Positions 1-21,194 of a DNA stretch of 23,646 nucleotides are shown here, piece by piece. Location of the stretch: positions 1 through 23,646 of IMG/VR virus record IMGVR_UViG_3300046809_000429; one strand, written 5' to 3'. A program made the translations under genes and the position numbers. The DNA comes from a virus. A model generated the notes under the pieces. It searched no databases. It saw only the letters and a list, made by a program, of their open reading frames with translations, and was not told the DNA's origin. Position 1 is the first letter of the stretch. Every line of letters starts with the position of its first letter.

Positions 1-1298
1 CCGCTGTGCACATAATCCGTCTTGTCCCCGGGTATCAACCGGTGATTGGGCGCGTTCACGATCGTCGTCCCCGTCAGGCTGCTCACATACACCTGCAGCT
101 GGGCCGCCTTGAAACCCGTCTGGAAACTCGTCTGCCCCGCTCCGTCCGGCTGCATAATCAGCGTCGGCGCCCCGTTCCCGTAAAACCCCGGCGTCAACGC
201 CTGGCGCTCCAGGTAAAACATCCCCAAACTCGCCCCGCTCATGTCCAGCTTGGTCGTCAGGCTCGCCGTCGTGTAAAGCTCCACCTTGTTGCCCGAGATC
301 AGCTTCACAAAATACAGCGTGTTCGGGTTCGGCGGGCTCGTCCCCAGGATGTAGCTCGAGGGAAACGCCACATACAGCACCCGATCCCCGTTCGCCCAGG
401 CCTGCGGCGAGTTGAGCTGGATCTGGCTCGTCCCGATGTCTATCGCCGGCGCCCCGAAATAGTGCCTCTCGTTGCCATGGCGCAGCAGCATCACCCCGTT
501 ATACACCGGGATCAACCTCGCCACGTCCCACACGTCATGTCCGTTGAGGGGGATAGCCTGCGGCGCCTGGCCGCTCATTATCCGCCAGGCCCGGCCGCGC
601 CCCCCGTCCTCGCCCGGCCCGTCCCGCAAATCGTCCGTCACCAGGATCAAGTTATCCGTCAGCGTATCCGGATCCGTAAAGCGCTTGTAAGCCATCGGGT
701 TCTGTCCGGTGGCATACACCTGCGCCGTCACACTCACCCCATTGGTGGTCCCGATGAAATTCAGGCTCGGATCCGCCGCGATGAAATACAGCACCACACC
801 CGCCCCGGGATTGGTCAGCGTCTGCGCCCCGTTAAGAATGAAATGGGTGGGCCCGGCCTCGTGCGCCCCGGTCACCAGCGCATACCCCTTACCCACGGTC
901 AAACCCGTGAAAATATAGTGGGGTTCACCCAAAGAATCCGGCGCATACACCTGCGCCGCCGGGATCAGCCCGCGCCAGGTCTTATACGGTAGCCGTCCCC
1001 AGCTTTGCAGCTCGATCGAGTAGCGCGGCCACACCCGGCCATCTTCGAACCGCTTATTGATCGCCCCGGCCGCCATCCCCGGCTCCAGCTCGTGCGGCGG
1101 CCTCTGCGTATCCACCCCGCGCCACGAGGCATCCCCATCACTCTGCGCCAGTGCCTGAGATTGCCATGCCATACCTAGTGAGTTACCGCAAAGAACGCAA
1201 AGAACGCAAAGCCGAACAGCGGCCAGCATGGAAGCAACTGGCATTTCTCTGCGTTCTCTGCGTTCTCTGCGTTCTTTGCGGTTAAATTCATACATCAT
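1..1298 (-). CDS. Large virion protein, C-terminus beyond the window edge
   Basis: The frame is open for 432 codons from position 1298 to the left edge, so the C-terminus is missing. The body is beta-rich and Gly/Thr/Asn-rich without enzyme motifs. A segment near residues 60-92 (GVDTQRPPHELEPGM, then AINKRFEDGRVWPR) resembles the start of phage tail-tube or stopper proteins as I remember them. The ATG at 1298 overlaps the upstream stop by 4 nt (ATGA), which favours this start. In that case residues 5-18 (RKERRER-type) and 30-38 (LCVLCVLCG) are encoded by a forward and an inverted repeat copy and form a signal-peptide-like N-terminus. The alternative starts are ATG at 1244, 1229 and 1172. The last would drop all repeat-coded residues and begin MAWQSQALAQ. 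The gene is certain, the start is uncertain, and the function is inferred from position next to the connector-like gene. Confidence 0.75.
   Translation of the reverse strand, partial: MMYEFNRKERRERRERREMPVASMLAAVRLCVLCVLCGNSLGMAWQSQALAQSDGDASWRGVDTQRPPHELEPGMAAGAINKRFEDGRVWPRYSIELQSWGRLPYKTWRGLIPAAQVYAPDSLGEPHYIFTGLTVGKGYALVTGAHEAGPTHFILNGAQTLTNPGAGVVLYFIAADPSLNFIGTTNGVSVTAQVYATGQNPMAYKRFTDPDTLTDNLILVTDDLRDGPGEDGGRGRAWRIMSGQAPQAIPLNGHDVWDVARLIPVYNGVMLLRHGNERHYFGAPAIDIGTSQIQLNSPQAWANGDRVLYVAFPSSYILGTSPPNPNTLYFVKLISGNKVELYTTASLTTKLDMSGASLGMFYLERQALTPGFYGNGAPTLIMQPDGAGQTSFQTGFKAAQLQVYVSSLTGTTIVNAPNHRLIPGDKTDYVHS
1183..1211 (+). repeat. 9-bp-period repeat, inverted copy
   Basis: It reads ACCGCAAAGAACGCAAAG on the plus strand, opposite to the genes. 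It pairs with the copy at 1246-1289 as an inverted repeat with a spacer of about 34 bases. On the coding strand it encodes LCVLCVLCG of the large virion protein. Confidence 0.9.
1246..1289 (-). repeat. 9-bp-period repeat, long copy
   Basis: It contains four tandem units after the TTTAACCGC head, in the gene direction. It lies between the stop at 1295 and the ATG at 1244, and encodes a basic RKERRERRERRE stretch if translation starts at 1298. Confidence 0.92.
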
Positions 1299-1924
1299 GG
1301 CAGTGCCAGCGGCGTCACCGGCCTTGGCCGCGCATAGCCCCTTCGCAGCCTCACATTGCGCCAGGTCGGCGGCACCAGCCGGTTTAACTCCGTTGCCAGC
1401 GCACCCTCCGCCAGTTGTAACCGGCTGTTTCCGCTCGCCTCGATGTCGCTATTGAGCAAATGCCCCGCCGCACGCAGCGCCAGGTAATTGCTGAATCGTC
1501 TTGGGATCAGGTAAGCCGCCAGCAGATTATCGGCCACCGCCATCAGGTCCGGCGCCGGCAGCATGTATTCCACCCACACACTGGCTATCGGCTCGTCCAG
1601 CTTCACCACGCCGTCACCCTCCACAAACCCCACCTCCCGCGCCCGCGTGCTGATGAGCGGGTTCGCAGTCCACACCGCCAATATGTCCCCCATCTCCGTC
1701 AAGGGCGTGCTCTCGTTCTTGCTGAATTGCTGGTTGACGATCGTTGTCACGTTCGGCGGATCCGGCCTCAGCTCCGGCCACTCGTGCTTGTTCCACACAT
1801 CGGCCAGGTCAACCGCCACAAACCCCCGGATCATCACCGCCTCCGACAACGGAATGTTGTCGCGCGTACGCCCCGCCAGCTCCGCCGCCCGGTAAAGTAT
1901 GTCCTGGTAAGCAACAGTTTTCAT
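1295..1924 (-). CDS. Head-tail connector-like virion protein (209 aa)
   Basis: The N-terminus (YQDILYRAAELAGRTRDN) starts a mostly helical region. A central segment carries EMGDILAVWTANP and WVEYMLPAPDL, followed by an alanine/leucine-rich helical C-terminal half ending in a basic, proline-containing tail. This pattern recalls small connector or tail-tubular-A-like proteins of phages, a recollection I could not test. The start ATG at 1924 overlaps the TGA of the short frame upstream (ATGA), and its own stop overlaps the next start in the same way. Its position just before the large virion protein suits a neck or tail-adaptor role. No membrane segment or signal is seen. Confidence 0.75.
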   Translation of the reverse strand: MKTVAYQDILYRAAELAGRTRDNIPLSEAVMIRGFVAVDLADVWNKHEWPELRPDPPNVTTIVNQQFSKNESTPLTEMGDILAVWTANPLISTRAREVGFVEGDGVVKLDEPIASVWVEYMLPAPDLMAVADNLLAAYLIPRRFSNYLALRAAGHLLNSDIEASGNSRLQLAEGALATELNRLVPPTWRNVRLRRGYARPRPVTPLALP

Positions 1925-2028
1925 TCATTGCTGAGCCGCGAAAGACTCATGTTCATTTCTTCTTCCTCAGATGAGGCGGCAAAAATGAACAAGCCCGTCT
2001 CTGCGTTCTTTGCGGTTAAATTCTTCAT
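1921..2028 (-). CDS. 35-aa reading frame bridging two genes
   Basis: A 36-codon frame starts at the ATG at 2028, overlapping the stop of the zinc-ribbon gene by 4 nt, and ends at a TGA that overlaps the start of the 209-aa gene by 4 nt. Residues 2-8 (KNLTAKN) come from a forward 9-bp-period repeat. The middle is a short hydrophobic GLFIFAAS followed by SSEEEE, and SLSRLS near the end comes from a partial inverted repeat. The ATGA overlap at both ends suggests it is at least translated through, so that coupling is maintained. It may have no function as a peptide. Confidence 0.35.
   Translation of the reverse strand: MKNLTAKNAETGLFIFAASSEEEEMNMSLSRLSNE
1933..1947 (+). repeat. Partial inverted copy of the 9-bp-period repeat
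   Basis: GAGCCGCGAAAGACT on the plus strand matches the head of the repeat (AGCCGCGAAAGAACGC variant). It faces the forward copy at 1997-2023. Confidence 0.6.
1997..2023 (-). repeat. 9-bp-period repeat
   Basis: A single-unit copy with the TTTAACCGCAAAGAACGC head in the gene direction. It encodes NLTAKNAE in the 35-aa frame. Confidence 0.88.
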
Positions 2029-2639
2029 TTCGGCAAAGGTATCGGTATCGCCACCACCGGGTTCAAATACACCTCCCGCGTCCAGAAAATCTCCCGCCCG
2101 CAACCCGGCCTGGTGCACCGCACCCGCATCCGATGCTCCTCGACCAGGCCACCGCCCATCGTCCGGCCGCCGCTCACCCGGTCAAACACCGCCCCGCTCA
2201 CAAAGCTCGTCCGGCATTCCGGGCATGTCACCTGCCACAAGTTCGTCGAGGGCATCCCCGGCAAATCCGGCGGCAAGTCCACCCCCAAGCTGCGCGCCGC
2301 GATCCGCATCGGTGAATTAGCCGGAACTATTGTATTCGTCCAGGTCTTCGTCGTCGCCGGATCGGGCTTCTCCGTCGTGTTCGTCCCGTCCGTCGTCACA
2401 ATGGTCCGTTGCGACACCGCCAGCCCCGTAATCGTCGCCGCCTCCGCCGCTTGCTGCTGCTGCAAACTGGCAATCTTGAGCAGGATCCCCGTCGTCAACT
2501 CCGGCGAATCCTTAAACGTGGCCAGCTTCCTCTGCTCCTCGCGAATGGTTTGCCCCGGAACCTCTTGCCGCCAAAGAACGCAAACAGCGCAGAGCAGTAT
2601 GACTGTTTTGCGTTCTCTGCGTTCTTTGCGGTTACTCAT
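2025..2639 (-). CDS. Zinc-ribbon protein with repeat-built N-terminal signal or anchor (204 aa)
   Basis: The ATG at 2639 overlaps the preceding stop by 4 nt. Residues 1-11 (MSNRKERRERK) are encoded by a forward 9-bp-period repeat. Residues 13-23 (VILLCAVCVLW) are encoded by an inverted copy. Together they form a basic region and a hydrophobic core like a signal peptide or type II anchor. A glutamine-rich helical segment lies at 55-70. A zinc-ribbon-like arrangement of Cys139, Cys142, Cys175 and Cys180 sits in the C-terminal half, with RCTRPGCGREIFW around the second pair. A zinc site is unusual in an exported protein, so the N-terminus may be an anchor or simply tolerated. Function is unknown; the surroundings suggest a virion or lysis-region accessory. 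Confidence 0.68.
   Translation of the reverse strand: MSNRKERRERKTVILLCAVCVLWRQEVPGQTIREEQRKLATFKDSPELTTGILLKIASLQQQQAAEAATITGLAVSQRTIVTTDGTNTTEKPDPATTKTWTNTIVPANSPMRIAARSLGVDLPPDLPGMPSTNLWQVTCPECRTSFVSGAVFDRVSGGRTMGGGLVEEHRMRVRCTRPGCGREIFWTREVYLNPVVAIPIPLPK
2565..2597 (+). repeat. 9-bp-period repeat, inverted copy inside a gene
   Basis: GCCGCCAAAGAACGC and following bases face the copy at 2606-2635 across an 8-base spacer. The two form a near-perfect arm pair of about 30 bases each. Confidence 0.88.
2606..2635 (-). repeat. 9-bp-period repeat at a gene start
   Basis: It starts four bases after the ATG of the zinc-ribbon gene, which reads ATGAGT then AACCGCAAAGAACGC. It encodes NRKERRERK. 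Confidence 0.92.
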
Positions 2640-2981: not shown

Positions 2982-3239
2982 TCAGCTTAGTTGCTTCGCA
3001 TTCACCCGCACGCACGTCGCCGGCCGCCCGGTGAATTCCGAGTCACCCAAATCCACCGTCACCCACTGCGGCGCGTGCGGATGGATCGAGGCCACCGTCA
3101 CCTTGAGCGTCACCTCCTCCCCCACCGCGAGCACCCGCGGCGCCGGCGGCGGCCAGGTCTGCTGCCCTTGAAACTGGCGATCCTTGCCGGGCTCATCCGC
3201 TTCCTTCATCAAATTTGTTTCCGTGTTCTTCGTTGCCAT
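2982..3239 (-). CDS. Hypothetical protein (85 aa)
   Basis: I do not recognise this protein. The N-terminal 30 residues are polar and probably disordered (MATKNTETNLMKEADEPGKD). The remainder looks like a small beta domain (EEVTLKVTVASIHPHAPQWVTVDLGDSEFTGR). The ATG at 3239 follows AAAGGCAAGTT, in which the last bases of a 9-bp-period repeat merge with the AAAGG ribosome binding site. It sits in a run of small genes between the lysis-like group and the connector gene. Confidence 0.65.
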   Translation of the reverse strand: MATKNTETNLMKEADEPGKDRQFQGQQTWPPPAPRVLAVGEEVTLKVTVASIHPHAPQWVTVDLGDSEFTGRPATCVRVNAKQLS

Positions 3240-3244
3240 AACTT

Positions 3245-3272
3245 GCCTTTGCGTTCTTTGCGGTTAAAAAAA
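3245..3272 (-). repeat. 9-bp-period repeat in an intergenic gap
   Basis: TTTAACCGCAAAGAACGCAAAGG fills the 34-base gap between the 91-aa and 85-aa genes and supplies the Shine-Dalgarno of the latter. Confidence 0.9.
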
Positions 3273-3273
3273 A

Positions 3274-3549
3274 TCAACCCGTCTTGGTCATCCGATACGC
3301 CACCTGCGGATCCGTGTACTCCACGTTATCTATCGAGTAGCGGGAAGATCCCGGATGCGTGTGGCCCAGTGTTCCAGCAGGCACCCAGGGCTTGCCGGGA
3401 CCTGGGCTGCTTTCCAGCGAGTAAGTGCCCGGATCGGGCATCTCCCAAAACACGTTAAGGGCATACTCCGTTCCGAAGTACCCTGTCCACTCAACTTGCG
3501 ATGGAATGATTGATCCGATCGGTAATGGTGGGGGCACTGCGATTCCCAT
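3274..3549 (-). CDS. Hypothetical protein (91 aa)
   Basis: I do not recognise this protein. It is Pro/Gly/Tyr-rich with a proline-rich start (MGIAVPPPLPIGSIIP), a GYFGTEYALNVFWEMPDPG segment and YSLESSPGPG, suggesting a small beta-sandwich similar to fibronectin-type folds. No signal or membrane segment is seen. The ATG at 3549 follows AAAGGCAAATTATT, a good ribosome binding site directly downstream of a repeat copy. A small virion decoration protein is possible but unproven. Confidence 0.65.
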   Translation of the reverse strand: MGIAVPPPLPIGSIIPSQVEWTGYFGTEYALNVFWEMPDPGTYSLESSPGPGKPWVPAGTLGHTHPGSSRYSIDNVEYTDPQVAYRMTKTG

Positions 3550-3563
3550 AATAATTTGCCTTT

Positions 3564-3598
3564 CTCTCTCTGCGTTCTCTGCGTTCTTTGCGGTTAGA
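3564..3598 (-). repeat. 9-bp-period repeat in an intergenic gap
   Basis: The CTAACCGC head is followed by two units and a GAGAGAG tail, filling the gap between the lipoprotein gene and the 91-aa gene. Confidence 0.9.
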
Positions 3599-3607
3599 TT
3601 GCTTCCC

Positions 3608-3922
3608 TCACGGCTTCGCCGCCTTCACTCCTCCCTGCACCGCGCCGGACACCACCGCCTCTACCAGCGCGTTCAGGTTCGTCGTCGTGCTCACCTGGTT
3701 TAACCCGCCGATCGTCGTTCCCGCCGGCCATTGGCCGTTGGTCGTCGTTGTCGTCGCGTTGCGGAATTTGGTCAGCTCCGATTTTGAATCCATGAACGTC
3801 ACCACCCGCACGAAAGAGGTTCGCTGCCCCTGCTCATTGTAAGTCGTCGAGTGCAGCACCGCGCAGCCGGCCAGTCCCGCGATCACCATCAGTCCCATCA
3901 GTCCCATCAGTCTCAGTTTCAT
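3608..3922 (-). CDS. Small lipoprotein, possible outer-membrane spanin
   Basis: The N-terminus has a basic start, a hydrophobic stretch and a lipobox LAGC with Cys20, the expected lipidation site. The hydrophobic stretch (LMGLMGLM) is encoded by a tandem 9-bp repeat. The mature part is Thr/Asn-rich and about 85 residues long, with a C-terminal VEAVVSGAVQGGVKAA segment. The start shares one base with the upstream stop (TAATG). It follows a holin-like gene and a membrane/coiled-coil gene, as outer-membrane spanin subunits often do, which is the basis for the suggestion. The length is within the range of such lipoproteins, but no proline-rich segment typical of Rz1 is present. It could be another phage lipoprotein, such as a superinfection-exclusion factor. 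Confidence 0.7.
   Translation of the reverse strand: MKLRLMGLMGLMVIAGLAGCAVLHSTTYNEQGQRTSFVRVVTFMDSKSELTKFRNATTTTTNGQWPAGTTIGGLNQVSTTTNLNALVEAVVSGAVQGGVKAAKP
3887..3914 (-). repeat. GGGACTGAT-type tandem repeat
   Basis: Three 9-base units of ATCAGTCCC on the plus strand encode the MGLMGLM core of the lipoprotein signal peptide. I recall the same unit type as an intergenic repeat in Verrucomicrobia and Planctomycetes. Confidence 0.75.
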
Positions 3923-4179
3923 TATTTCGTGTCCTTCTTAGTCATTTCCGTATCCCCGGTGCTCTCAGGCGGCACCGGGCTCTGTTTCAGGTAGGCGAAC
4001 ATCCCCACCAGGCCGCCGGTCAGGCACATCACCCCCAGCTGCTTGAGGTCCAGCCGCTGCACATTCACCCCCACCGCGGCCGCCACCGCGATCCCCACAA
4101 AGGCGGATCCGCTCGAGGCCGCCCCGGTGATCACCGCCGCCGCCAGCGCCCTCAGCCACTGTTCAGTTTTGACTCTCAT
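3922..4179 (-). CDS. Holin-like small membrane protein (85 aa)
   Basis: Two hydrophobic segments can be seen: residues about 10-38 (ALAAAVITGAASSGSAFVG and on) and about 47-64 (QLGVMCLTGGLVGMFAYL). A charged C-terminal tail ends in MTKKDTK. Size and topology suit a two-segment holin. It overlaps the lipoprotein gene by one base and follows a single-span coiled-coil protein, so the trio resembles a lysis cassette. The ATG at 4179 stands six bases after a repeat copy that ends CGCAAAG, with no other ribosome binding site. No endolysin is present in the window to confirm the role. Confidence 0.6.
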   Translation of the reverse strand: MRVKTEQWLRALAAAVITGAASSGSAFVGIAVAAAVGVNVQRLDLKQLGVMCLTGGLVGMFAYLKQSPVPPESTGDTEMTKKDTK

Positions 4180-4182
4180 TAT

Positions 4183-4218
4183 CTTTGCGTTCTCTGCGTT
4201 CTTTCGCGGCTAAAATTC
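4183..4218 (-). repeat. 9-bp-period repeat upstream of the holin-like gene
   Basis: A variant head TTTTAGCCGCGAAAGAACGC plus two units ends as CAAAGAT immediately before the ATG at 4179. It fills the whole intergenic gap. Confidence 0.92.
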
Positions 4219-4221
4219 AAT

Positions 4222-4530
4222 TCACTTCCTCATCTTCTGCAGCTCCAGCTCCATCGCCGTCGTCCGGAGTTTCAGCTCCGCCAGGTCAATATCCTGCTTG
4301 GCCGAATGGTCCCGGAACCCCTGCAGCTCAACTTGCACCTCCACCCGCGGCATCATCTCCGCGTGCAACGCCTCCACGGTCTTGTTCAGCGCCGCCAGGC
4401 TCACTGCGGACGCCGCCTGCGTTCCCTCGATCACGCTCAGCGTATGGGTCGCCAGGAACCACGCCACCGCGCCCAGTCCGCCAATGATCAATAGCAGAAT
4501 CGTGTTGGTCTTGGATTGCTTGGTGTCCAT
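4222..4530 (-). CDS. Single-span membrane protein with coiled coil (102 aa)
   Basis: A short basic N-terminus is followed by a membrane segment at about 10-32 (NTILLLIIGGLGAVAWFLA). A long helical, coiled-coil-prone region rich in Glu, Leu and Lys then runs to the end (DLAELKLRTTAMELELQKM). This is the architecture of an inner-membrane spanin or a holin-accessory protein. It sits directly before the holin-like and lipoprotein genes. The ATG at 4530 has only a weak upstream purine tract. The assignment to lysis is inferred from order and topology, not from a recognised motif. Confidence 0.65.
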   Translation of the reverse strand: MDTKQSKTNTILLLIIGGLGAVAWFLATHTLSVIEGTQAASAVSLAALNKTVEALHAEMMPRVEVQVELQGFRDHSAKQDIDLAELKLRTTAMELELQKMRK

Positions 4531-4604: not shown

Positions 4605-5699
4605 TTATTGGTAAAGACTTCCGTCGAACTTGATTGCAAGGCTGTCCCAGAACGCCACTGTGTTTCCCCCGTCGCTGCTCGAAGGGATGCCGAGTTGAAA
4701 TAGCGCGACACCTCCAGCGATGCTGTCATTGCTTGAGTAGGTGCTGCCGACTAGATTGCCGGACATATCATAAAAGTTTATATAGCCACCATCCCCACTG
4801 ACCCATTTCCCAACAACTCGGTAATTGGTGTTTCGGGAGATAGTCACATTTGATCCAAACACGCATGGATTAGGAGAGGGGCAGGTTTCAGTTCTCAATG
4901 CGGGCAATCCTGAATGATAGTTTGGAAACGAGCAATAGACGCTCGCGTTGGTCGTGGACTCCATGACGCCATGATCGAAGAAGTTCCCGTTTGCCTCACC
5001 GAAAGACATGATACACTGGAAGGACACAGTTGGGTAATTGGTGGCCCAATTTAGCACTCCATACTGCTCGAAAGCGCCATTGAAGAAGTAAGCCATCCCG
5101 ACTCCGTTTGCCCCGTCATGTGCGGTACCGTCCACCTTGACTGGAGCAGGTAAGGCGGCGTTTACATTGGTGAAAAACATTGCTGTGGAAGTCGGAAGAT
5201 TGGTGGCCGTTTGACCTCCGAGTAATGTCCATGTCCCTTTGAAACTGGTGCTGATGTAAGACGAGGCTGCGAGCAGGTTTGTGGTTACTGCCTGTCCGCT
5301 TGTTCCACCGTGAAAGTCAACGAAGATGTCCGCCAGATAGTTGACAACGATGTTTGTCGTTGTGCTCGAACTTCCTCCCGCGTTCTGCGCGGTAAACGTC
5401 ACAGTCGTTAAACCCGATGCAAAACCGTGAGTCGGGTTCTGACTGGTGCTGGTGTTGCCGTCTCCGAAGTTCCAGAACCACGACGTTGGCGTTCCAGTCG
5501 AGGCATCAGTGAACGTCACGGAAAGCGTTGGATCACCTGCGGTCGTGCTGGCATTGAAGGCAGCAACCGGGGGCGCAATGAAAACTCCGTTACCACTAAG
5601 AACGGCCTTGCCGGTAATACTCGCTTGACCGGAGATTGTCCCCGTCACAGCCGCCCCGAGCGTCTGAGCAAGGCACAGCAATAGCGCAAGAGTCCTCAT
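4605..5699 (-). CDS. PKD-domain secreted or virion protein (364 aa)
   Basis: Residues 1-17 (MRTLALLLCLAQTLGAA) form a signal peptide. A PKD-like beta-sandwich spans about 44-120, with the characteristic SWFWNFGDGNTSTSQNPTH stretch. The remainder (about 125-364) resembles a concanavalin/LamG-type beta sandwich, with VDFHGG near its start, VGKWVSGDGGYINFYD and AFWDSLAIKFDG near the end, and two pairs of cysteines in the middle. Such domains bind sugars or proteins at cell surfaces. The start overlaps the tail-spike stop by 4 nt (ATGA), so the two are translationally coupled and may be a receptor-binding pair. The base composition is visibly more AT-rich than in the head genes. A signal peptide on a virion protein is odd; export from the infected cell is the alternative. 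Confidence 0.75.
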   Translation of the reverse strand: MRTLALLLCLAQTLGAAVTGTISGQASITGKAVLSGNGVFIAPPVAAFNASTTAGDPTLSVTFTDASTGTPTSWFWNFGDGNTSTSQNPTHGFASGLTTVTFTAQNAGGSSSTTTNIVVNYLADIFVDFHGGTSGQAVTTNLLAASSYISTSFKGTWTLLGGQTATNLPTSTAMFFTNVNAALPAPVKVDGTAHDGANGVGMAYFFNGAFEQYGVLNWATNYPTVSFQCIMSFGEANGNFFDHGVMESTTNASVYCSFPNYHSGLPALRTETCPSPNPCVFGSNVTISRNTNYRVVGKWVSGDGGYINFYDMSGNLVGSTYSSNDSIAGGVALFQLGIPSSSDGGNTVAFWDSLAIKFDGSLYQ

Positions 5700-8600
5700 T
5701 CAAGTATGGCGATGACGTTTTGAACCTTGAACTCGCACGATGCAGACGCACTCTGCCATTGCCAATACACGACAAAGTTTTGAGCGGAAGTGGTGTCTAT
5801 GGCCGTAGATGCCCCCCAGATAGGATTCATGAATACCGTCGAATTAGGAAACCCCGCACCAATCAACGGAGATGTTCCACCGCTGGCAAACAAAATGTTC
5901 CCAACCATTGATTGCGAATTAACGGTTCCTGTGTTTTGCAATATGAACTCAAACGAGAATCCCTGCCGTTGGGTTCTGGCCGGGAATAGTAAATTCTGAG
6001 TGTTTACAGCCCCGGTGTGATAGTTTGTAGTGCCACCGAAAGTAACCGCCAAGACAGCCCCAGTTGATGAGCCGGAGTTTTGCAAAAAGTCTCCCGCGAC
6101 ATAAATATGGACTGCCCTGTTAGTCCCCATAGACGCCGCAGGAATTGGGACCACGACCAAGTTGCTCAATGCGCTTGACGATGTATCGTTGCTGACATTG
6201 TAATTGCGATAGATCACTACAGGCACGTTCCCATTTGTCCCACCAAAACCAAATTGAGCGGATAGTTTTCCGGTAACGAACAGGTCAGCCTGATTCGTCA
6301 CGATACCATTCTGAGGCGCAAGAACCAAAGGACCAGTGCTGCTTGAGAATGTCGCATTTCCGCTGGTCGTAATCGCCACCGAGTTGCTGTTTATTGCGAC
6401 GTTGTTTCCATTGGCGCTGACCATTAATTCATCTTTAACAAACTCCACCCCATTATTAGTCAAAGGCCCAGTAATCGTTATCGCTCTGGTGTCGTTATTG
6501 GTTAACGCATTCGGATCAGTCGGTCCTTGTGGACCCGTTGCCCCTGTCAACGTTACAAAATACCCTGTCCCGAATGTAAAATCACTCGTCGCACCTGTTC
6601 CATCAGACGAATTAGTAAAGTAAAACTTCGCCCCTGCTTTAAGTATTCCCTCTAGTGGCACTACAATCGTCTGTTGTGTGGTCACAGAGTTTGACACAAC
6701 AGAGAGAGTAGTGAAAGTAGAACCACCAGACTGATCAGCCATTATCGCCATAACGCCTGAACCAGTGGTGGCAGGGCCAATCAATACTATGGACGATAAT
6801 GCAAGTATCGGGGCTGACCCCACCGTATAAACTTGATTGATGTTCCAGTTGGTCTGCGTGATCGTCGGCGCCCCGCCGCCGCCGCTTGTGGTTTGCCCGT
6901 TAGTGGAGAGTGTGTTTCCAGTCAGTAATAACCCGCTCCCCACCGTGATGCTGTTGAGCGCCTTGTTGGCGTCCGAGCCCACCAGCGTCGAGGCCGTCAA
7001 AGAGCCGTTCGTCATCCGGCCCGTCGTGGAAATGATGTTGGCGAACAACGGAAAATTCGCCGTCGCGTTCGTCGCCCACAAACCGTCCGTGCCGGAGAAG
7101 GCGTTGCCGCTCGCCATCACACCGCCCAGGCCCGCCCCCAGGATCACCGCCCCCGGCCCCAGCCCAAACGCGTTCGAGACTGTCCCCGCCCCGCCCCCGC
7201 CCGTGCTCGTGATCCCGATATTCGCCTGCCCGTTCACCACCGCCCCCGTCACCACGCTCGAGCCGTTGCCCAGTATGTTCAGGTTGGAGATCACCGTTCC
7301 CCCGGCCGCCACCGAGACGCCATTGGTCAGCACATTCACGATCGCGTTGCTCGCCGAACCACTCCCTCCACCCCCTGTACTTGTAAAACCAATTTCCGCC
7401 TGCCCATTCACAACCGCACCGGTGATTGCGATCCCCCCATTCCCGATGAAGTCCAGGTTACTAACCACGTCAGACCCTAAACTTACAGTATTCGTAAAAA
7501 TCCTAGTAACTGCGCCTACGATGTTAGACGCAAGAAGGACTTTCACCTGGATAGAAGTAAAGAAGTTGGTTCCAGAAAAAGTGTTTGATCCAGAAAGGTT
7601 CAAGCCATTTGTCCAATGCGCTAACCCTACCGCATCACTTACTAGAACACTGTCCAACGCAGGTCCGCCGCCTTTGATTGTAGCCGTGCCATTGACGGCG
7701 AAATTGTTCGAGGCGTTGAGGTTTCCCCAAATGCTCAACCCAAGAATGCTGTTTGAGACGATGGTGAATGGCCCGGTCGTCGTGGTGCTTGTTTGGGGGC
7801 TGAATGTAAACCACGGCGTGGTCCCGCTGTCATTGATAATCGCATCTCCATGATCTGCTTCTTGGAATCCGCCTTGCGAATGGTTCACGGCGCAATGGCC
7901 GCCCAAACTATAGTTAACCACCTTGTAGTTCCCTCCAAAGTAAAAGTCATTTGCCACCGTGATTGATCCACCCACATTGATCACCGACGCGCCACACTTC
8001 AGAAAGCTGTTGTTTTCAATGGTGAGGTCAGACGAATCGAATGTCTCGTAAACAATGGCCGGCCCTAAGCCCATGAAACTCGCCACATCCAGGCTCCCCG
8101 CGTAATCCGCGTTCGTCCAGAGCGTGGTATAGGTGTAAGCCGAATTGGTGAAGAACGATCCTATGCTGCCGAAATTGTTCCCGCTGATTATGCCTCGATT
8201 TCCTCCATGGGCAATCGCACAAGCCAACCCAAAAAAAGTGTTCCCGGTAAACTCCGACCACACGGACGAGCTGGGCTCTAGCCACACTCCCACTACCCCG
8301 GGCTGCACCGATTGCGTCAATTCATAGTTGTAGGTGTAACCGCCATTGGCATGCGCCGATTGATTGGTCAACCCAAAGTTCCAGGCGAATGTGTTGTTCC
8401 TGAAACGCACGTCCTGGTACGCCCCTATCTTGAAGATCATATTTGTCGTGTTCGGGATCATCAGCCACGAGATGTTGTCCACCTCCAACCGCAAACCATT
8501 GAACAAGGTGCTTCCGATATATTCTGTCGTGATGACGAAGTTCGATCCGCCTGGACCGTTGTAAATAACTTGCGGCAAGCCCTCGCCTCTGATCTTTAGG

Positions 8601-9172
8601 TTAAACGGCCTGTTGGTGTAAGACGGAATGATGATCTGCCCTGTGCACACAAACTGGCCCGGCCCTTCAAGCACAATCGTCCCGCCGCCCGGAATCAAAA
8701 ACTTGCTCGCCGCAGCTGAGGATGGCGCCAGCGGCATGTCGTTGATCGCCTCCTGGATCCCTGCCGAAACCGTCCCCGTCGTCACCAGCTTGCCCTTCGG
8801 CCCGATCACTGTCCCGTTGGTGAACACCCGGTACACGGCGCTGATGTTCGTCAGATTCCCGGCGTCCCCCACAAAGTTGGTCGAGGTGATTTGGCCTCCA
8901 ACAAAAGTGGGAAAATAATTGCTGCCGACAAAGATGGAGTTGCTGAACGTGCCGCCGGTAAAGGTATTGGTCCCGATAAACGTCACGTTGCTGAACGTGC
9001 CGCCGTTGATGTTGCTGTTAATGGTGAAGAAGTAGAAATTGCTGCCCGCCCCGCCCCCAGGCGAAAACACCGCCGGTTGCTGGGCGCGCGCCTCTTGCCG
9101 CGAAAGGACGCAAAGAGCGCACAGCACCAGCACCAGCATCAGCACCGGTTTGAGTCGAATTATTGTTTTCAT
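5696..9172 (-). CDS. Tail-spike-like beta-helix protein with signal peptide (1158 aa)
   Basis: Residues 1-30 give a convincing signal peptide: basic MKTIIRLK, hydrophobic LMLVLVLCALCVL and an ARAQ cleavage region; CALCVL is encoded by an inverted 9-bp-period repeat. Residues about 45-110 carry short Gly-Thr-Phe-Ser-Asn repeats. Residues about 135-480 look like a pectate-lyase-type right-handed beta helix (IQEAIND, GGGTIVLEGPG, IRGEG, then many Asn-rich turns). Residues 571-606 and 629-664 are a tandem duplication with a 58-residue period (VVNGQA core, GGGG linker). A collagen-like TGATGPQGP lies at 877-885, followed by a beta-rich C-terminal domain. The family commonly binds or cleaves host polysaccharide. 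I begin at the ATG at 9172, five bases after the previous stop. An upstream in-frame extension to 9418 has no domain and overlaps another gene. The C-terminal third is AT-richer. Confidence 0.8.
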   Translation of the reverse strand: MKTIIRLKPVLMLVLVLCALCVLSRQEARAQQPAVFSPGGGAGSNFYFFTINSNINGGTFSNVTFIGTNTFTGGTFSNSIFVGSNYFPTFVGGQITSTNFVGDAGNLTNISAVYRVFTNGTVIGPKGKLVTTGTVSAGIQEAINDMPLAPSSAAASKFLIPGGGTIVLEGPGQFVCTGQIIIPSYTNRPFNLKIRGEGLPQVIYNGPGGSNFVITTEYIGSTLFNGLRLEVDNISWLMIPNTTNMIFKIGAYQDVRFRNNTFAWNFGLTNQSAHANGGYTYNYELTQSVQPGVVGVWLEPSSSVWSEFTGNTFFGLACAIAHGGNRGIISGNNFGSIGSFFTNSAYTYTTLWTNADYAGSLDVASFMGLGPAIVYETFDSSDLTIENNSFLKCGASVINVGGSITVANDFYFGGNYKVVNYSLGGHCAVNHSQGGFQEADHGDAIINDSGTTPWFTFSPQTSTTTTGPFTIVSNSILGLSIWGNLNASNNFAVNGTATIKGGGPALDSVLVSDAVGLAHWTNGLNLSGSNTFSGTNFFTSIQVKVLLASNIVGAVTRIFTNTVSLGSDVVSNLDFIGNGGIAITGAVVNGQAEIGFTSTGGGGSGSASNAIVNVLTNGVSVAAGGTVISNLNILGNGSSVVTGAVVNGQANIGITSTGGGGAGTVSNAFGLGPGAVILGAGLGGVMASGNAFSGTDGLWATNATANFPLFANIISTTGRMTNGSLTASTLVGSDANKALNSITVGSGLLLTGNTLSTNGQTTSGGGGAPTITQTNWNINQVYTVGSAPILALSSIVLIGPATTGSGVMAIMADQSGGSTFTTLSVVSNSVTTQQTIVVPLEGILKAGAKFYFTNSSDGTGATSDFTFGTGYFVTLTGATGPQGPTDPNALTNNDTRAITITGPLTNNGVEFVKDELMVSANGNNVAINSNSVAITTSGNATFSSSTGPLVLAPQNGIVTNQADLFVTGKLSAQFGFGGTNGNVPVVIYRNYNVSNDTSSSALSNLVVVPIPAASMGTNRAVHIYVAGDFLQNSGSSTGAVLAVTFGGTTNYHTGAVNTQNLLFPARTQRQGFSFEFILQNTGTVNSQSMVGNILFASGGTSPLIGAGFPNSTVFMNPIWGASTAIDTTSAQNFVVYWQWQSASASCEFKVQNVIAILE
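9095..9124 (+). repeat. 9-bp-period repeat, inverted copy inside the tail-spike signal peptide
   Basis: GCCGCGAAAGGACGCAAAG on the plus strand is the repeat in reverse of the gene direction, encoding the CALCVLSR part. The flank CCTCTTGCCG is shared with the inverted copy at 2565. Confidence 0.8.
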
Positions 9173-9177
9173 CAAAA

Positions 9178-9537
9178 TCAGAGGTAAGCGGTCCAATCCA
9201 CCTTGAAATGGCCCACCGCACCCGCCGCGATCGTGCAGGCCGCGTCGGTGAACAGCGCCATGTAAATCCCATTCTCCATCCGGTCCCCGCCGTGCACTGA
9301 CCCGCTCAAAAAATTGTTCGCCGTGATCGGATAAACCGTGCATGGCCCTTTGTCCGTCCCAGCGTTGGCGCTGTCCTGCAGCTTCAGGTACACCGGCGCG
9401 CCCGAATTGTTGAAGCAATAGAAATTGACCAGGCGCCGCTTCGCGGCGATCACCTGCTTGCTCGCCTCAAACGTCGGGTTCCCGTTCGCATCGCTGCTCT
9501 TATAGTGCTCGTCCGCTGCCAATGAAATTGAGTGCAT
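9178..9537 (-). CDS. Small virion protein candidate (119 aa)
   Basis: The chain looks like a small beta-sandwich: RRLVNFYCFNNSGAPVYLKL, then CTVYPITANNFLSGS, then GIYMALFTDAACTIA and FKVDWTAYL at the end. It has no signal or membrane segment. The phrase pattern, with a surface-exposed beta barrel between capsid and tail-spike genes, suits a head-fibre or decoration protein as in other phages. This is inference. The ATG at 9537 follows AAAGGAAACTGATTTTTT, where the end of a repeat copy merges with the AAAGGA ribosome binding site. Confidence 0.7.
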   Translation of the reverse strand: MHSISLAADEHYKSSDANGNPTFEASKQVIAAKRRLVNFYCFNNSGAPVYLKLQDSANAGTDKGPCTVYPITANNFLSGSVHGGDRMENGIYMALFTDAACTIAAGAVGHFKVDWTAYL

Positions 9538-9551
9538 AAAAAATCAGTTTC

Positions 9552-9586
9552 CTTTGCGTTCTTTGCGTTCTTTCGCGGCAAAATTC
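9552..9586 (-). repeat. 9-bp-period repeat in an intergenic gap
   Basis: The AATTTTGCCGCGAAAGAACGC head and two units end CAAAGGAAAC, supplying the ribosome binding site of the 119-aa gene. It fills the gap almost exactly. Confidence 0.92.
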
Positions 9587-9983
9587 ATCCGTACTTCTTC
9601 ACGACCTTCCTGCCCGGCGTCCACCCGCTCACCGTTCGCAGGCTCACCGTTTCCACCCGGCATTGCGGGTTATCCTTCAGGATCTCCTTGATCCCTTCCT
9701 CCGAGTGCAGCCCTTCCCAGCCAAAATTTTTGCGCGTCGCCAGGTTCCAGAACAGCGTCTTGGGGATCCGCGCTTCCACCCGGCCCCATTCGTAACCGCT
9801 CTCGTCCCGGTAAGGCAGCGCCCGGTTGTCCGGCCGGCCCGCGCAGCGCCGCATCCGCGTCTCGTGCGCCGCGTGCTCCGCCAGCTCCCGCTGCTGAAAC
9901 ACTTCGATCACGTCCGGCACCATCGAGATCGGCAATCCCATGCCCTCGCAATAGTCGGCTAAAGTGTAAATCGGCTTGCTCAA
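9585..9983 (-). CDS. Hypothetical protein after the capsid gene (132 aa)
   Basis: I do not recognise the family. The first half is helical (YTLADYCEGMGLPISMVPDVIEVF followed by a Glu/His/Arg-rich helix), and the second half has ARIPKTLFWNLATRKNFGWEG and a basic tail ending KVVKKYG. No signal is present. The start is a TTG at 9983 without a clear ribosome binding site. The next in-frame ATG (residue 15) would shorten the helix. Position just downstream of the major capsid gene makes a head-completion or virion role plausible, unsupported by motifs. Confidence 0.6.
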   Translation of the reverse strand: MSKPIYTLADYCEGMGLPISMVPDVIEVFQQRELAEHAAHETRMRRCAGRPDNRALPYRDESGYEWGRVEARIPKTLFWNLATRKNFGWEGLHSEEGIKEILKDNPQCRVETVSLRTVSGWTPGRKVVKKYG

Positions 9984-9998
9984 GGTCGGTGAGTCAGT

Positions 9999-10033
9999 CT
10001 TTGCGTTCTTTGCGTTCTTTAGCGGCTAAAACC
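9999..10033 (-). repeat. 9-bp-period repeat downstream of the terminator
   Basis: TTTTAGCCGCTAAAGAACGC head and two units, between the terminator and the 132-aa gene, in the gene direction. Confidence 0.9.
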
Positions 10034-12487: not shown

Positions 12488-12638
12488 CTCCCTTTGCCAT
12501 CTGCGATTTGCCATCTGCCATACCGCTTCTTAATTTCTCTTCCAAACGGTGAAAGCACAGAGCAATGTGCCCGTTTGTGATGAAAAACAGGCCGATCAGG
12601 CACATTATTAAAATGAAGGTGTCTTTTGATTCAAACAT
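12465..12638 (-). CDS. Small membrane protein (57 aa)
   Basis: The frame from the ATG at 12638 encodes MFESKDTFILIMCLIGLFFI and continues TNGHIALCF, one hydrophobic segment of about 22 residues, followed by a basic helix (HRLEEKLRSG). The last residues come from two repeat types (GGCAAAT-like, then AAACCCTAT). The start lies nine bases after the 87-aa gene with AGTGAG upstream as a ribosome binding site. A single-span protein of this size could be an accessory holin or inner-membrane regulator. It is unusual among head genes, and no family is recognised. Confidence 0.6.
   Translation of the reverse strand: MFESKDTFILIMCLIGLFFITNGHIALCFHRLEEKLRSGMADGKSQMAKGENPIKPY
12492..12521 (-). repeat. 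GGCAAAT-type 7-bp-period repeat
   Basis: ATGGCAGATGGCAAATCGCAGATGGC-type degenerate units, in the gene direction. They encode MADGKSQMAK near the end of the 57-aa protein. Confidence 0.8.
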
Positions 12639-12647
12639 AGCGTTTAC

Positions 12648-12911
12648 TCACTTTTGGTTGGTTTGTTGAGCCATGTGCGCCCGGCCCAGCATCCTCCAAA
12701 AATCCGTCTCCCCCGCCACCACCACAATCCACGCCGCCAACTCCAGCGCCGCCACCCGGTTCAAGTTGATCACCACCCCACCCACCTCAAACCTCACGTG
12801 CTGGATATACCCCTCCCTCAACTCCACCCCAAAAGTGTTTTCGTCTTTCAGATTTTCTTCGGAATTCGGCATTCGGCCCTCGGATTTCTTTCGGATTTCG
12901 GCCCTCGTCAT
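12648..12911 (-). CDS. Small hypothetical protein with repeat-coded N-terminus (87 aa)
   Basis: The ATG at 12911 overlaps the previous stop (ATGA), and the first about 22 residues (TRAEIRKKSEGRMPNSEE) are encoded by a CCGAAAT-type repeat. The rest (VELREGYIQHVRFEVGG, then NRVAALELAAWIVVVAGE) looks like a small beta-hairpin plus helix domain, similar in outline to the 67-aa protein at 16742-16945. The ancestral start could have been later, for instance a GTG near residue 29 or the ATG at residue 14. It is in the run of small genes between the glycosyltransferase and the scaffold. Function unknown. Confidence 0.6.
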   Translation of the reverse strand: MTRAEIRKKSEGRMPNSEENLKDENTFGVELREGYIQHVRFEVGGVVINLNRVAALELAAWIVVVAGETDFWRMLGRAHMAQQTNQK

Positions 12912-12923
12912 TCGGATTTTCTC
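12849..12923 (-). repeat. CCGAAAT / CCGAATGACGA-type repeat
   Basis: About ten degenerate 7-9-bp units span a gene junction. One unit contains the ATGA in which the 109-aa gene stops and the 87-aa gene starts. I recall this unit type from Verrucomicrobia and Planctomycetes. Confidence 0.85.
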
Positions 12924-13240: not shown

Positions 13241-13290
13241 AAAATTTCAAATCACAAATTTTCAATGCTCAATGCTCAATGCTCAATGCC
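13241..13290 (-). repeat. ATTGAGC 7-bp-period repeat with AAATTTGTGATTTG tail
   Basis: Four ATTGAGC units followed by GAAAATTTGTGATTTGAAA occupy the gap between two genes and contain the last codons and TGA stop of the glycosyltransferase-like gene. Confidence 0.88.
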
Positions 13291-14575: not shown

Positions 14576-14618
14576 CTTTGCGTTCTCTGCCATTTGCCAT
14601 TTGCCATTTGCCATTTGC
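14576..14618 (-). repeat. Composite repeat: GGCAAAT units fused to the 9-bp-period unit
   Basis: Four GGCAAAT-type units run directly into GCAGAGAACGCAAAG in the gap between portal and 65-aa genes. It is a fusion of two otherwise separate families. Confidence 0.88.
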
Positions 14619-16741: not shown

Positions 16742-16945
16742 TTATTTTCCTTTCTTGCCTCTGCGTTCTCTGCGTTCTTTGCGGTTAAAATTCATTGATT
16801 CGTCCACCTTCTTCACCAAAAGTTTGGCCAGGTCCATCGCCTGCGCCGGCGGCAACATGATCCGCCCCCTGCCCAATGGCAGCGTCACCACCACCACGCC
16901 ACTGTCCAGGCTCACAATCAGGTCCCCGTCAATGATGTCGTTCAC
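16742..16945 (-). CDS. Small protein with repeat-coded C-terminus (67 aa)
   Basis: The GTG start at 16945 lies inside the previous gene, with a 17-base overlap. Residues 1-50 (DLIVSLDSGVVVVTLPLGRGR and QAMDLAKLLVKKVDES) are a beta-hairpin plus helix. The last 16 residues (NFNRKERRERRGKKGK) are encoded by a 9-bp-period repeat plus the ribosome binding site of the portal gene. The fold outline resembles the core of the 87-aa protein at 12648. The repeat appears to have been added downstream and replaced the original stop. Confidence 0.6.
   Translation of the reverse strand: MNDIIDGDLIVSLDSGVVVVTLPLGRGRIMLPPAQAMDLAKLLVKKVDESMNFNRKERRERRGKKGK
16758..16793 (-). repeat. 9-bp-period repeat before the portal gene
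   Basis: GAATTTTAACCGCAAAGAACGC and one further unit (CAGAGAACGC), then CAGAGGC. It is translated as part of the 67-aa protein. Confidence 0.92.
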
Positions 16946-17159
16946 AAGCCCTCCCCTCGTCGCGCAGTCGTTTGTGGTACGCCTTCATCTCCGCCTTATT
17001 GCGCCATGGCTTGCGCTCCTGGCTCAGCACACTCCCGTTGCGCTGCACCAGGTACGCGTCCCCGCTTTGAAAGTTGAAGGTCTTGCCCACCGCCAGATCT
17101 CCGGTCGTCCTCGCGGTCAGCTTGTGCATCACCTGCACGATTCGTCTTTGCTTGCTCAC
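16929..17159 (-). CDS. Hypothetical basic protein (76 aa)
   Basis: The GTG at 17159 overlaps the ACP stop as GTGA, so I prefer it to a longer upstream form. The chain is basic with MHKLTARTTGDLAVGKTFNF, a YLVQRNGSVLSQERKPW segment and a final helix NKAEMKAYHKRLRDEG. This suggests a small nucleic-acid-binding or structural protein, but I do not recognise it. It is translated with its acyl-carrier neighbour. Confidence 0.58.
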   Translation of the reverse strand: MSKQRRIVQVMHKLTARTTGDLAVGKTFNFQSGDAYLVQRNGSVLSQERKPWRNKAEMKAYHKRLRDEGRACERHH

Positions 17160-17422
17160 AAATTCGCCTTCTGTTTCGCCACCAGCAGCCACACCACCCT
17201 GGCCAGGTCGCCCACCGTCTCGACGTCCTCGGTCAGTTCCTCCGGTATGTCTATCCCGTGCTCCTCCTCCAGCTCCATCAGCAGCTCCAGAACATCCATC
17301 GAGTCCAGCCCCAGGTCCTCCTCCAGCCGCAACGCTTGCGGATCCACGCTCCCCACCAGCGCCTTATGCCCATCCTCCCGCAATCGCTGGAGCACGCTCT
17401 CCAAAATCAGGTCTTCACTCAT
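17156..17422 (-). CDS. Acyl carrier protein (88 aa)
   Basis: Residues 31-43 ([13 protein letters not shown]) contain the DS-M/L motif of acyl carrier proteins with Ser41 as the site for the 4'-phosphopantetheine arm. The four-helix outline, acidic helix II ([16 protein letters not shown]) and C-terminal helix fit the family, with a normal length. Such proteins carry acyl chains for fatty-acid or related synthesis, or partner with acyltransferases. The start overlaps the stop of the Gp37/Gp68 gene by 8 bases and the next gene starts at its stop (GTGA). No acyltransferase, ketosynthase or phosphopantetheinyl transferase is seen in the window, so it must use host enzymes. A carrier protein between terminase and portal genes is unusual. 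Confidence 0.85.
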
Positions 17423-18674: not shown

Positions 18675-20470
18675 TACCATCCTCTCCCACCAACAACCTC
18701 CGGTATCTCCGGGTCCACATAGTAAAGCGGTTGCCCAAACAAATAGCGCAGCGTGTCCACTGGGTCTTTCCACGGGCTGGTCCGCGCCTGGTCCAGGCTC
18801 CAGTTGAGCATGCACCGGATCAGGTTCTGGCAGCGCTCGCTGATGTAGAGGCGCGGCTCGTTCTCGATCGTCACCGGCTTGTCCGGGTCATACGCCAGCA
18901 AATCGTTCACGTTCTCCAGGTCCAGGTTAATCGTCTGCCGAACCATCGCCGGCCGCCAATCCATCGGCGCCCCGTGCTCGCCCGTGTTTTGCTGCTGGAA
19001 CAAATTGAACAGGCTCGTGTTCCCTTCGGCCGATGCCGCCTGCGTCGCGAACCCACGCGGATCCCCGTAGGCCGCGATCGCCTCCTGGCCGTGCTCGATC
19101 TCCCGCTGTCGGATATGTTGCTTGTACCACACCGTCCCCAGGCCCGCGTAGATCCTCTGCCCGTCCCCTATCTCCCCATCGCTGCCCACCCATTCCCCCT
19201 CCTCGTAACGCGGCGATTCATCGAACACAAACGCCCGGCCCTGCTCGTCCACCCGCGCCCACAAGATGAACATGCTCCGCGCCGTCGCCGGATCCCCGCC
19301 CCGATAATCCGTTCCCTCCGTTGGGATCTTCCCGGGCTTGATCACGTGCACCGCCGGACTGAACAACGGAAAGGCGGTACCGGAAAGTTTGTCCGCCCAC
19401 CCAAAGAGCCGCGTGCGCACCTTCCCCTTGTTGTCGTTGCGCGCCGCGTCGAACACCGCCGGCGCCCCCTTCTGCTGCTTGCTCTTGGGCAGAAAAACAT
19501 TCCAGTGCGTCCAAAGAAAAATCACGGACTGCCGCGCATTGAGCGGCTGCATCCGGTATGGCATGTGCCCCTTCGGACATCCCTTCACCTGCACCTCTCC
19601 CGGGTCAAGGACGGGTATCTTCAACTCCGGATCCGCGAATCCGTCCACCGCCTTTGCGTTCTCTGCGTTCTCTGCGGTTAAATTCTTAGTCCGCCAACGC
19701 CAATTCATCGGCAAGCTCTTGACCAATTTGGCTCCCGTCAACACCTCGTTGCACACCGCGTCAAACCCATGGATCGCCGTGAACGTCACGAAAATTTTCC
19801 CCGCCCGCTTATGCACGCGATAGCGCAGTGTGGCCAGCAGTTTGAGCGGCGCCGGTTCATCCAGCCACACCAGGTCATACTCCGGCCCCTCGAAACTGTT
19901 CGGATCATCCAGGTATTGGCGCACCGTCTTGAACCAGCATTGCGAGCGGTTTGGCAAAACAAACGTCGCCTCCGTGAACCCGCCCGCCGGCGTGTACTTC
20001 ACCTTGGCCACTCGCTCCCGCCGCTGGGGACTCGTCAGCTCATTACGCGATTTGAGAGCGCGAGGCAGGTATTTGTAAACCGCCGGCTGCTGCAGCTGCT
20101 TGCTCGAATTCTCGTTTGTCGCCACGCACAGCACCCGCTTGTTGGAGTTGTAACACAGCGTCTCGGCCACGATCTTCCCGCCGATCTCCGTCTTGCCCGG
20201 CCCGTTGCCGCCCAGCGCATACAACTCGTCCCGGTTCTCCAGGATCGTCCGCACGTCCTTCCAAAAGGGCAGCTCGAACCCGTAGCGCAGCGGGTCCTCG
20301 TCCGACTCCCGAATCATCCGCTCCCGCGCATCCCAGTACTCGAGCACGGCCGCATCCCCGCCCGGTTGCGCCAGCCACGCATCCAGCTCCGACTCCGATA
20401 GCGCCGGCACCAACTCATCCGCCACCGGATGCGCCGTCCACTTTAATTGCGCTGTTGGCGCCGTCGTCAT
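18674..20470 (-). CDS. terL: Large terminase subunit with an in-frame repeat insert (598 aa)
   Basis: The ATPase half carries Walker A GGNGPGKT at 87-94 and a Walker B VWLDE at 201-205. The nuclease half has the acidic residues Asp393 (GGDPA), Asp470 (YGDPRG) and Asp569/Asp572 (WKDPVDTLRY), giving an RNase-H-type site. The enzyme packages DNA and cuts concatemers at the portal. Residues 263-273 (NLTAENAENAK) are encoded by a 9-bp-period repeat lying between the two domains, in frame and without damage to the motifs. The start ATG at 20470 overlaps the TGA of the 80-aa gene by 4 nt; a longer frame to 20656 is just an upstream overlap. The length is otherwise normal. Confidence 0.93.
   Translation of the reverse strand: MTTAPTAQLKWTAHPVADELVPALSESELDAWLAQPGGDAAVLEYWDARERMIRESDEDPLRYGFELPFWKDVRTILENRDELYALGGNGPGKTEIGGKIVAETLCYNSNKRVLCVATNENSSKQLQQPAVYKYLPRALKSRNELTSPQRRERVAKVKYTPAGGFTEATFVLPNRSQCWFKTVRQYLDDPNSFEGPEYDLVWLDEPAPLKLLATLRYRVHKRAGKIFVTFTAIHGFDAVCNEVLTGAKLVKSLPMNWRWRTKNLTAENAENAKAVDGFADPELKIPVLDPGEVQVKGCPKGHMPYRMQPLNARQSVIFLWTHWNVFLPKSKQQKGAPAVFDAARNDNKGKVRTRLFGWADKLSGTAFPLFSPAVHVIKPGKIPTEGTDYRGGDPATARSMFILWARVDEQGRAFVFDESPRYEEGEWVGSDGEIGDGQRIYAGLGTVWYKQHIRQREIEHGQEAIAAYGDPRGFATQAASAEGNTSLFNLFQQQNTGEHGAPMDWRPAMVRQTINLDLENVNDLLAYDPDKPVTIENEPRLYISERCQNLIRCMLNWSLDQARTSPWKDPVDTLRYLFGQPLYYVDPEIPEVVGGRGW
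19652..19684 (-). repeat. terL: 9-bp-period repeat inserted in the terminase gene
   Basis: AATTTAACCGC and two AGAGAACGC units plus AAAG, 33 bases and in frame. Confidence 0.93.
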
Positions 20471-21156: not shown

Positions 21157-21194
21157 GTTCTTTGTGTTCTATGCGTTCTCTGCGGTTAAATTCA
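21157..21194 (-). repeat. 9-bp-period repeat at the dnaB terminus
   Basis: AATTTAACCGCAGAGAACGCATAG encodes the final NLTAENA and the TAG stop of the helicase. The copy runs up to the next ATG. Confidence 0.92.

Follow-up and report, generated by a model that had tools for sequence, protein, structure and literature searches.

Described palindromic repeats and the repeat examined here

Several described families of short repeats share features with the one examined here. Rickettsia palindromic elements are dispersed sequences of ~100-150 bp, some of which are in-frame insertions in unrelated protein-coding genes (Ogata et al., 2000, 2002; reviewed in PMC10969869). Likened by description, our repeat is also palindromic, about 100-150 bp long and dispersed, with paired arms that fold, and members of its family lie in frame in unrelated genes (a terminase and, twice, CarB), although the copy at the junction discussed below was judged intergenic. 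It differs from the Rickettsia elements in its tandem 9-nt arms, its mostly intergenic copies, and its occurrence in phages and many phyla. REP/REPIN elements are high-copy, mostly intergenic palindromes of 20-40 bp that form GTAG and CGTC families, and GTAG families occur in Verrucomicrobia too (PMC3733652). The present repeat is likewise mostly intergenic, but it has longer arms and no GTAG or CGTC end tag, which places it outside the REP definition.

Two further families invite comparison. PARCEL elements are 25-residue tandem protein repeats within ORFs and, like our repeat, consist of palindromic translated DNA with a patchy distribution across distant taxa (PMC2996958), whereas the copies here are single hairpins at junctions. 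The TAACTGA repeats of Beggiatoaceae are 7-nt direct repeats, with one indirect set reported (PMC4679880); they resemble our repeat as short tandem intergenic units common to distant lineages and differ from it in that the 9-nt arms here are paired and inverted.

The viral window and its genes

The window, meaning the whole stretch of DNA analysed, is a 23.6-kb virus record (23,646 nt) of a tailed phage whose main genes are encoded on the minus strand. It encodes a replication protein, DnaB, an SU10-type capsid protein, fibre-like proteins, a portal-like protein that resembles those of relatives, and a terminase that matched Terminase_6N slightly below the curated cut-off and was 58-64% identical to two other viral terminases. 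The target gene, which is cut by the window edge, continues on IMGVR_UViG_3300046837_000232 (L001), a contig with 100% identity to the window over the 5.2 kb compared. Single-sequence searches of IMG/VR with the target, capsid and terminase returned this identical contig and only two terminase relatives, and a phage collection searched with the N-terminal 390 aa of the target gave no relatives. Similarity between the window phage and viruses G001 and G002, which also carry the repeat, was limited to the DnaB of G002, and we therefore treated both as unrelated to it in their structural genes.

Other features of the window were recorded in passing. The small gene at 17156-17422 may encode an acyl carrier protein look-alike. 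Some gaps hold repeats of other kinds, namely the heptamers TGCCATT, TCAATGC and TGCCATC and a 32-nt tandem repeat (14588-14618, 13262-13289, 12495-12521, 12841-12919). Several tail-region genes have signal-peptide-like or lipoprotein-like N-termini (5696-9172, 4605-5699, 3608-3922; L001:6560-7489), which would be unexpected if their products were virion proteins; in gene 3608-3922, a different 9-nt tandem repeat (3886-3912) encodes LMGLMGLM.

The repeat at the connector/head-closure junction

Pfam and PHROGs searches gave no match for the protein encoded just upstream of the target gene, so we named it connector by position only. On the minus strand, its stop overlaps ATG 1298 within an ATGA at 1298-1295, and the frame from this ATG reads MMYEFNRKERRERRERREMPVASMLAAVRLCVLCVLCGNSLGMAWQSQALAQ... 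and continues into the large ORF of the 3-1172 gene. The junction has the following features:

1295..1924, minus strand: connector-position protein, 209 aa (ORF); its TGA stop at 1297-1295 overlaps ATG 1298
1296..1298, minus strand: ATG in the ATGA overlap, proposed as a start by the sequence-only reading; judged not the main start
1173..1294, minus strand: intergenic palindromic element, 122 nt, from connector stop to ATG 1172 (gap sequence, RNA fold)
1245..1280, minus strand: sense arm of four 9-nt units, CGCAAAGAA CGCAGAGAA CGCAGAGAA CGCAGAGAA
1187..1213, plus strand: inverted arm of three units
3..1172, minus strand: head-closure (P22 gp10/Hc3-like) gene from its likely start at ATG 1172 (homologues, gene caller); runs off the window

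The sequence-only reading had described a forward four-unit repeat and its inverted copy in a frame open from the ATGA at 1298. The ORF, the TRF scores of the two arrays (65 and 50) and a control search confirm this description: the repeat 18-mer had 16 matches in the window. Chance repetition was rejected, as the reversed control gave 0 matches.

The ends of the element read TTAACCGC...GCGGTTAA, and neither a GTAG nor a CGTC tag was seen there. As RNA, the 122-nt gap is predicted to fold into a 27-bp stem (-61.1 kcal/mol, z -8.46) that ends 12 nt before ATG 1172. The same layout of stop, element and start recurs at other window junctions and in phage G002. No empty site lacking the element was found, the sole overlapping contig being identical to the window. 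The connector frame past its TGA is open through the element (1297-1175) to a TAG 2 nt before ATG 1172, and this TAG is possibly the original connector stop, predating the arrival of the repeat.

Very probably, the intergenic gap at 1294-1173 is filled by one copy of an interspersed palindromic repeat, and translation of the head-closure gene begins at ATG 1172. The arms of this repeat, made of tandem, stop-free 9-nt units, would then separate the connector stop from the head-closure start, the element would form a long stem-loop in the polycistronic mRNA, as the folding prediction suggests, and the head-closure protein would be translated from ATG 1172 as MAWQSQALAQSDGD....

Homologues and the start of the head-closure gene

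The complete target gene on L001 encodes 845 aa from ATG 1172 (L001:4001-6538), and the ORF from ATG 1298 encodes 887 aa (L001:3875-6538). Its product had no match in Pfam or PHROGs. By BLASTP, it aligned with the protein annotated 'head closure Hc3' of C75C1 (WJE88190) at 30% identity over 107 aa (E 3e-9), with 40% over 47 aa at the N-terminus, and it also matched the 'phage stabilization protein' of ctKR88 (UOF78248). This similarity marks the product as a distant head-closure protein of the P22 gp10 type. Both of these distant homologues start without the repeat. When an alignment of the three sequences was used as query, 79 further viral loci were found (E <= 1e-3).

From these loci, C75C1 and ctKR88, we assembled a set of 64 homologues with intact 5' ends (38 distinct N-termini, target included). 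They have 7-22 residues, with a median of 16, before a shared D-x-D motif; the target has 11 when read from ATG 1172 and 53 when read from ATG 1298. The frames of the homologues are closed within 18 codons upstream of the first ATG, and a simple gene caller also picked ATG 1172 in the target. In 27 distinct homologues, the distance from the end of the upstream gene to the start has a median of 5 nt, whereas a 122-nt hairpin lies between the two genes in the target. The repeat was not found before homologue starts, with 3 loose arm matches in the 79 loci (487 kb). A clear Shine-Dalgarno site was absent both before ATG 1172 and before 1298. The comparison of homologues that had been proposed to locate the native start, possibly ATG 1172, thus places it at about that codon, and the claim that the target gene has a repeat-built N-terminus is opposed by the homologue starts, the codon score of the leader and the layout of the junction.

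The open leader as evidence of coding

No stop occurs in any of the six reading frames of the unit CGCAAAGAA, which makes the openness of the leader a weak argument for coding: the frame from ATG 1298 stays open for lack of stops in the repeat arms. One antisense frame of the 126-nt leader is open throughout as well, and a given frame stays open 13% of the time when the leader is shuffled with its dinucleotides preserved. Among genes downstream of other copies, the frame is open through the whole element in 5 of 66, one of which has an upstream start codon. The argument that a random insertion of about 100 bases would mostly break the frame carries little weight with stop-free arms, which likewise weaken the case for a start at 1298 on grounds of the open frame. 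The leader scores as non-coding, its codon score of -16.6 falling in the lowest 0.2% among in-gene windows; likely coding copies of the repeat have low scores too (zinc-ribbon gene, -0.161 per codon).

The ATGA overlap and the open frame would also fit an upstream start, at 1298 by stop-start coupling or at ATG 1244 or 1229 within the element, with the repeat acting as a Sec signal peptide that has LCVLCVLCG as its core and ALA/Q as its cleavage site (the slash marks cleavage). By inspection, the ORF from 1298 has the hydrophobic core and ALA/Q, but its n-region is unusually long and the homologues have no such N-terminus. The A-x-A/Q pattern also ends the signal-like N-termini of the fibre (ARA/QQ) and the next gene (AHA/QL), and a fibre-like gene of the unrelated phage G002 is laid out in the same way, its ATGA overlap being followed by a whole element in frame and an AHA/A end. 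P22 gp10-type head-closure proteins should assemble in the cytoplasm, which counts against export, as does the low codon score of the leader. We consider a signal peptide here unlikely, while recognizing that an ATGA overlap, an open in-frame leader and ALA/Q before the conserved domain make a notable coincidence if the element is intergenic.

Slightly less likely still is a translated leader that begins at 1298 and forms a plain extension of the N-terminus with no role in export, as an in-frame insertion into the coding region similar to that in the terminase. The in-frame copies of the family in the terminase and, twice, in CarB speak for such an extension, but ATG 1172 would then stand at the family-typical start position by coincidence, and the leader codon score is again unfavourable.

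Copies in the window and within genes

The window holds 13 merged arms, mostly placed in the gaps that separate the stop of one gene from the start of the next. Besides the two arms at the junction, it contains the following copies:

1997..2014, minus strand: copy between the zinc-ribbon gene and the connector
2604..2630, minus strand: copy within the N-terminal part of the zinc-ribbon gene (start at ATG 2639), probably translated
3245..3262, minus strand: copy filling the gap between genes 3274-3549 and 2982-3239
3566..3592, minus strand: copy filling the gap between genes 3608-3922 and 3274-3549
4181..4198, minus strand: copy filling the gap between genes 4222-4530 and 3922-4179
9109..9126, plus strand: inverted arm in the N-terminus of fibre-like gene 5696-9172 (LVLCALCVLSRQEARAQ)
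9550..9576, minus strand: copy filling the gap between genes 9585-9983 and 9178-9537
9997..10023, minus strand: copy between the capsid gene and gene 9585-9983
16766..16783, minus strand: copy immediately before the portal gene that also reads as the C-terminal end of a small called ORF (16742-16945)
19650..19676, minus strand: copy in frame within the terminase gene (NLTAENAENAK)
21158..21184, minus strand: copy at the dnaB 3' end (MNLTAENA, then stop), continuing into the next gap

The zinc-ribbon gene has no alternative ATG, GTG or TTG before codon 47, and it probably starts just before the repeat and is translated through it. In the terminase, the repeat sits in a variable linker that is 8 residues longer than in one relative (locus L004) and 4 longer than in another (L005). 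At the same site, L005 has a different short repetitive stretch (L005:10740-10920, GGAAACAGAGAGAACAGAGA), and L004 has neither.

Outside the window, two whole palindromic elements lie in frame in the CarB gene of a bacterium (isolate RUG12612; L053:2908-2987 and 3205-3264). This CarB aligns over its full length with the carbamoyl-phosphate synthetase of E. coli, and the elements fall in linker-like, poorly matching stretches between well-matching ones. In three genes of G001, the antisense arm encodes a signal-peptide-like core (LSALFAFSAV, LSAFSAFFAV, LSAFCAFSAV), and the next possible start in these genes comes no earlier than codon 51. Signal peptides were judged by inspection and a simple score. 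The general claim that the repeat can build N-termini is partly supported: the zinc-ribbon gene and the unrelated phage genes with predicted signal peptides agree with it, and the head-closure gene does not. At other loci, the family seems to code for protein ends and linkers.

The repeat-built, signal-peptide-like N-termini seen in genes of two other phages are at L058:11400, L058:14249, L059:3118 and L061:13723, and one of them is on a zinc-ribbon protein. Long genes also contain in-frame copies, two of which lie in a 2,187-aa phage ORF (L064:963-7523) and one where holin-like and lipoprotein-like parts join (L068:6225-6995).

Distribution among phages and bacteria

Arms of the repeat were concentrated between genes. 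Intergenic arms numbered 41 of 57 in phages (9.5 expected; twelve virus loci), 134 of 157 in Verrucomicrobiota-type, host-like sequences (28 expected; 60 loci) and 75 of 91 in other bacteria (16 expected), with expectations taken from random circular shifts and genes called by a simple gene caller. The spacers of paired arms measure 10-192 nt in phages, compared with 9-168 nt in hosts, and 33 and 41 arms, respectively, are unpaired. In G002, paired arms lie between stop and start at six junctions.

The exact 33-nt pattern did not occur in the bacterial genomes searched. A shorter exact pattern gave 46 stretches, and a stricter one was present in 22 of 288 genomes of one phylum. By contig title, exact copies belong to Verrucomicrobia, Burkholderiales, a cyanobacterium, Caldilineaceae, Thermoguttaceae and others, many of these contigs being metagenome bins that are possibly impure. 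The density of the repeat is far higher in these phages than in these bacterial genomes, the other phages having been chosen for having the repeat. No Rfam family matched at the gathering threshold, and a literature search for the unit returned only papers whose titles indicate unrelated subjects; the family thus looks undescribed.

Spread and possible function of the element

The strong predicted folding and the placement of elements shortly after stops (a median of 12 nt in phages) would also suit a hairpin selected as a regulatory element, whether an mRNA stabiliser, attenuator or terminator, rather than tolerated as a repeat. Roles of this kind have been proposed for REP elements (PMC3733652), and by analogy a REP-like role in mRNA stability or termination is possible. 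On inspection of the sequence, however, the stem of the junction hairpin lacks a following T-run of the kind seen in intrinsic terminators; copies also lie inside genes, and positional conservation between related phages is lacking in support. We regard selection for regulation as doubtful, and it is compatible with an interspersed repeat copy that fills the gap before ATG 1172.

For such a copy, spread would most likely be that of a non-autonomous repeat, either selfish or dispersed by recombination, that is tolerated where genes meet, with occasional in-frame copies in linkers and protein ends because the repeat is stop-free. We tentatively suggest that one interspersed palindromic repeat of phages and many bacterial phyla may be a recurrent raw material for new protein ends, giving hydrophilic linkers and tails (NLTAKNAENAK) when read one way and Sec cores (LSAFSAFFAV, LCVLCVL) when read the other, which phage tail, envelope and zinc-ribbon genes would have taken up repeatedly. 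In its strongest form, with the head-closure gene included, this is improbable.

The locus is a worked example of how a stop-free repeat beside a start codon can lead gene callers to a false N-terminus. The repeat family is dense in some phage genomes and can serve as a testable case of dispersed hairpins becoming linkers and export signals.
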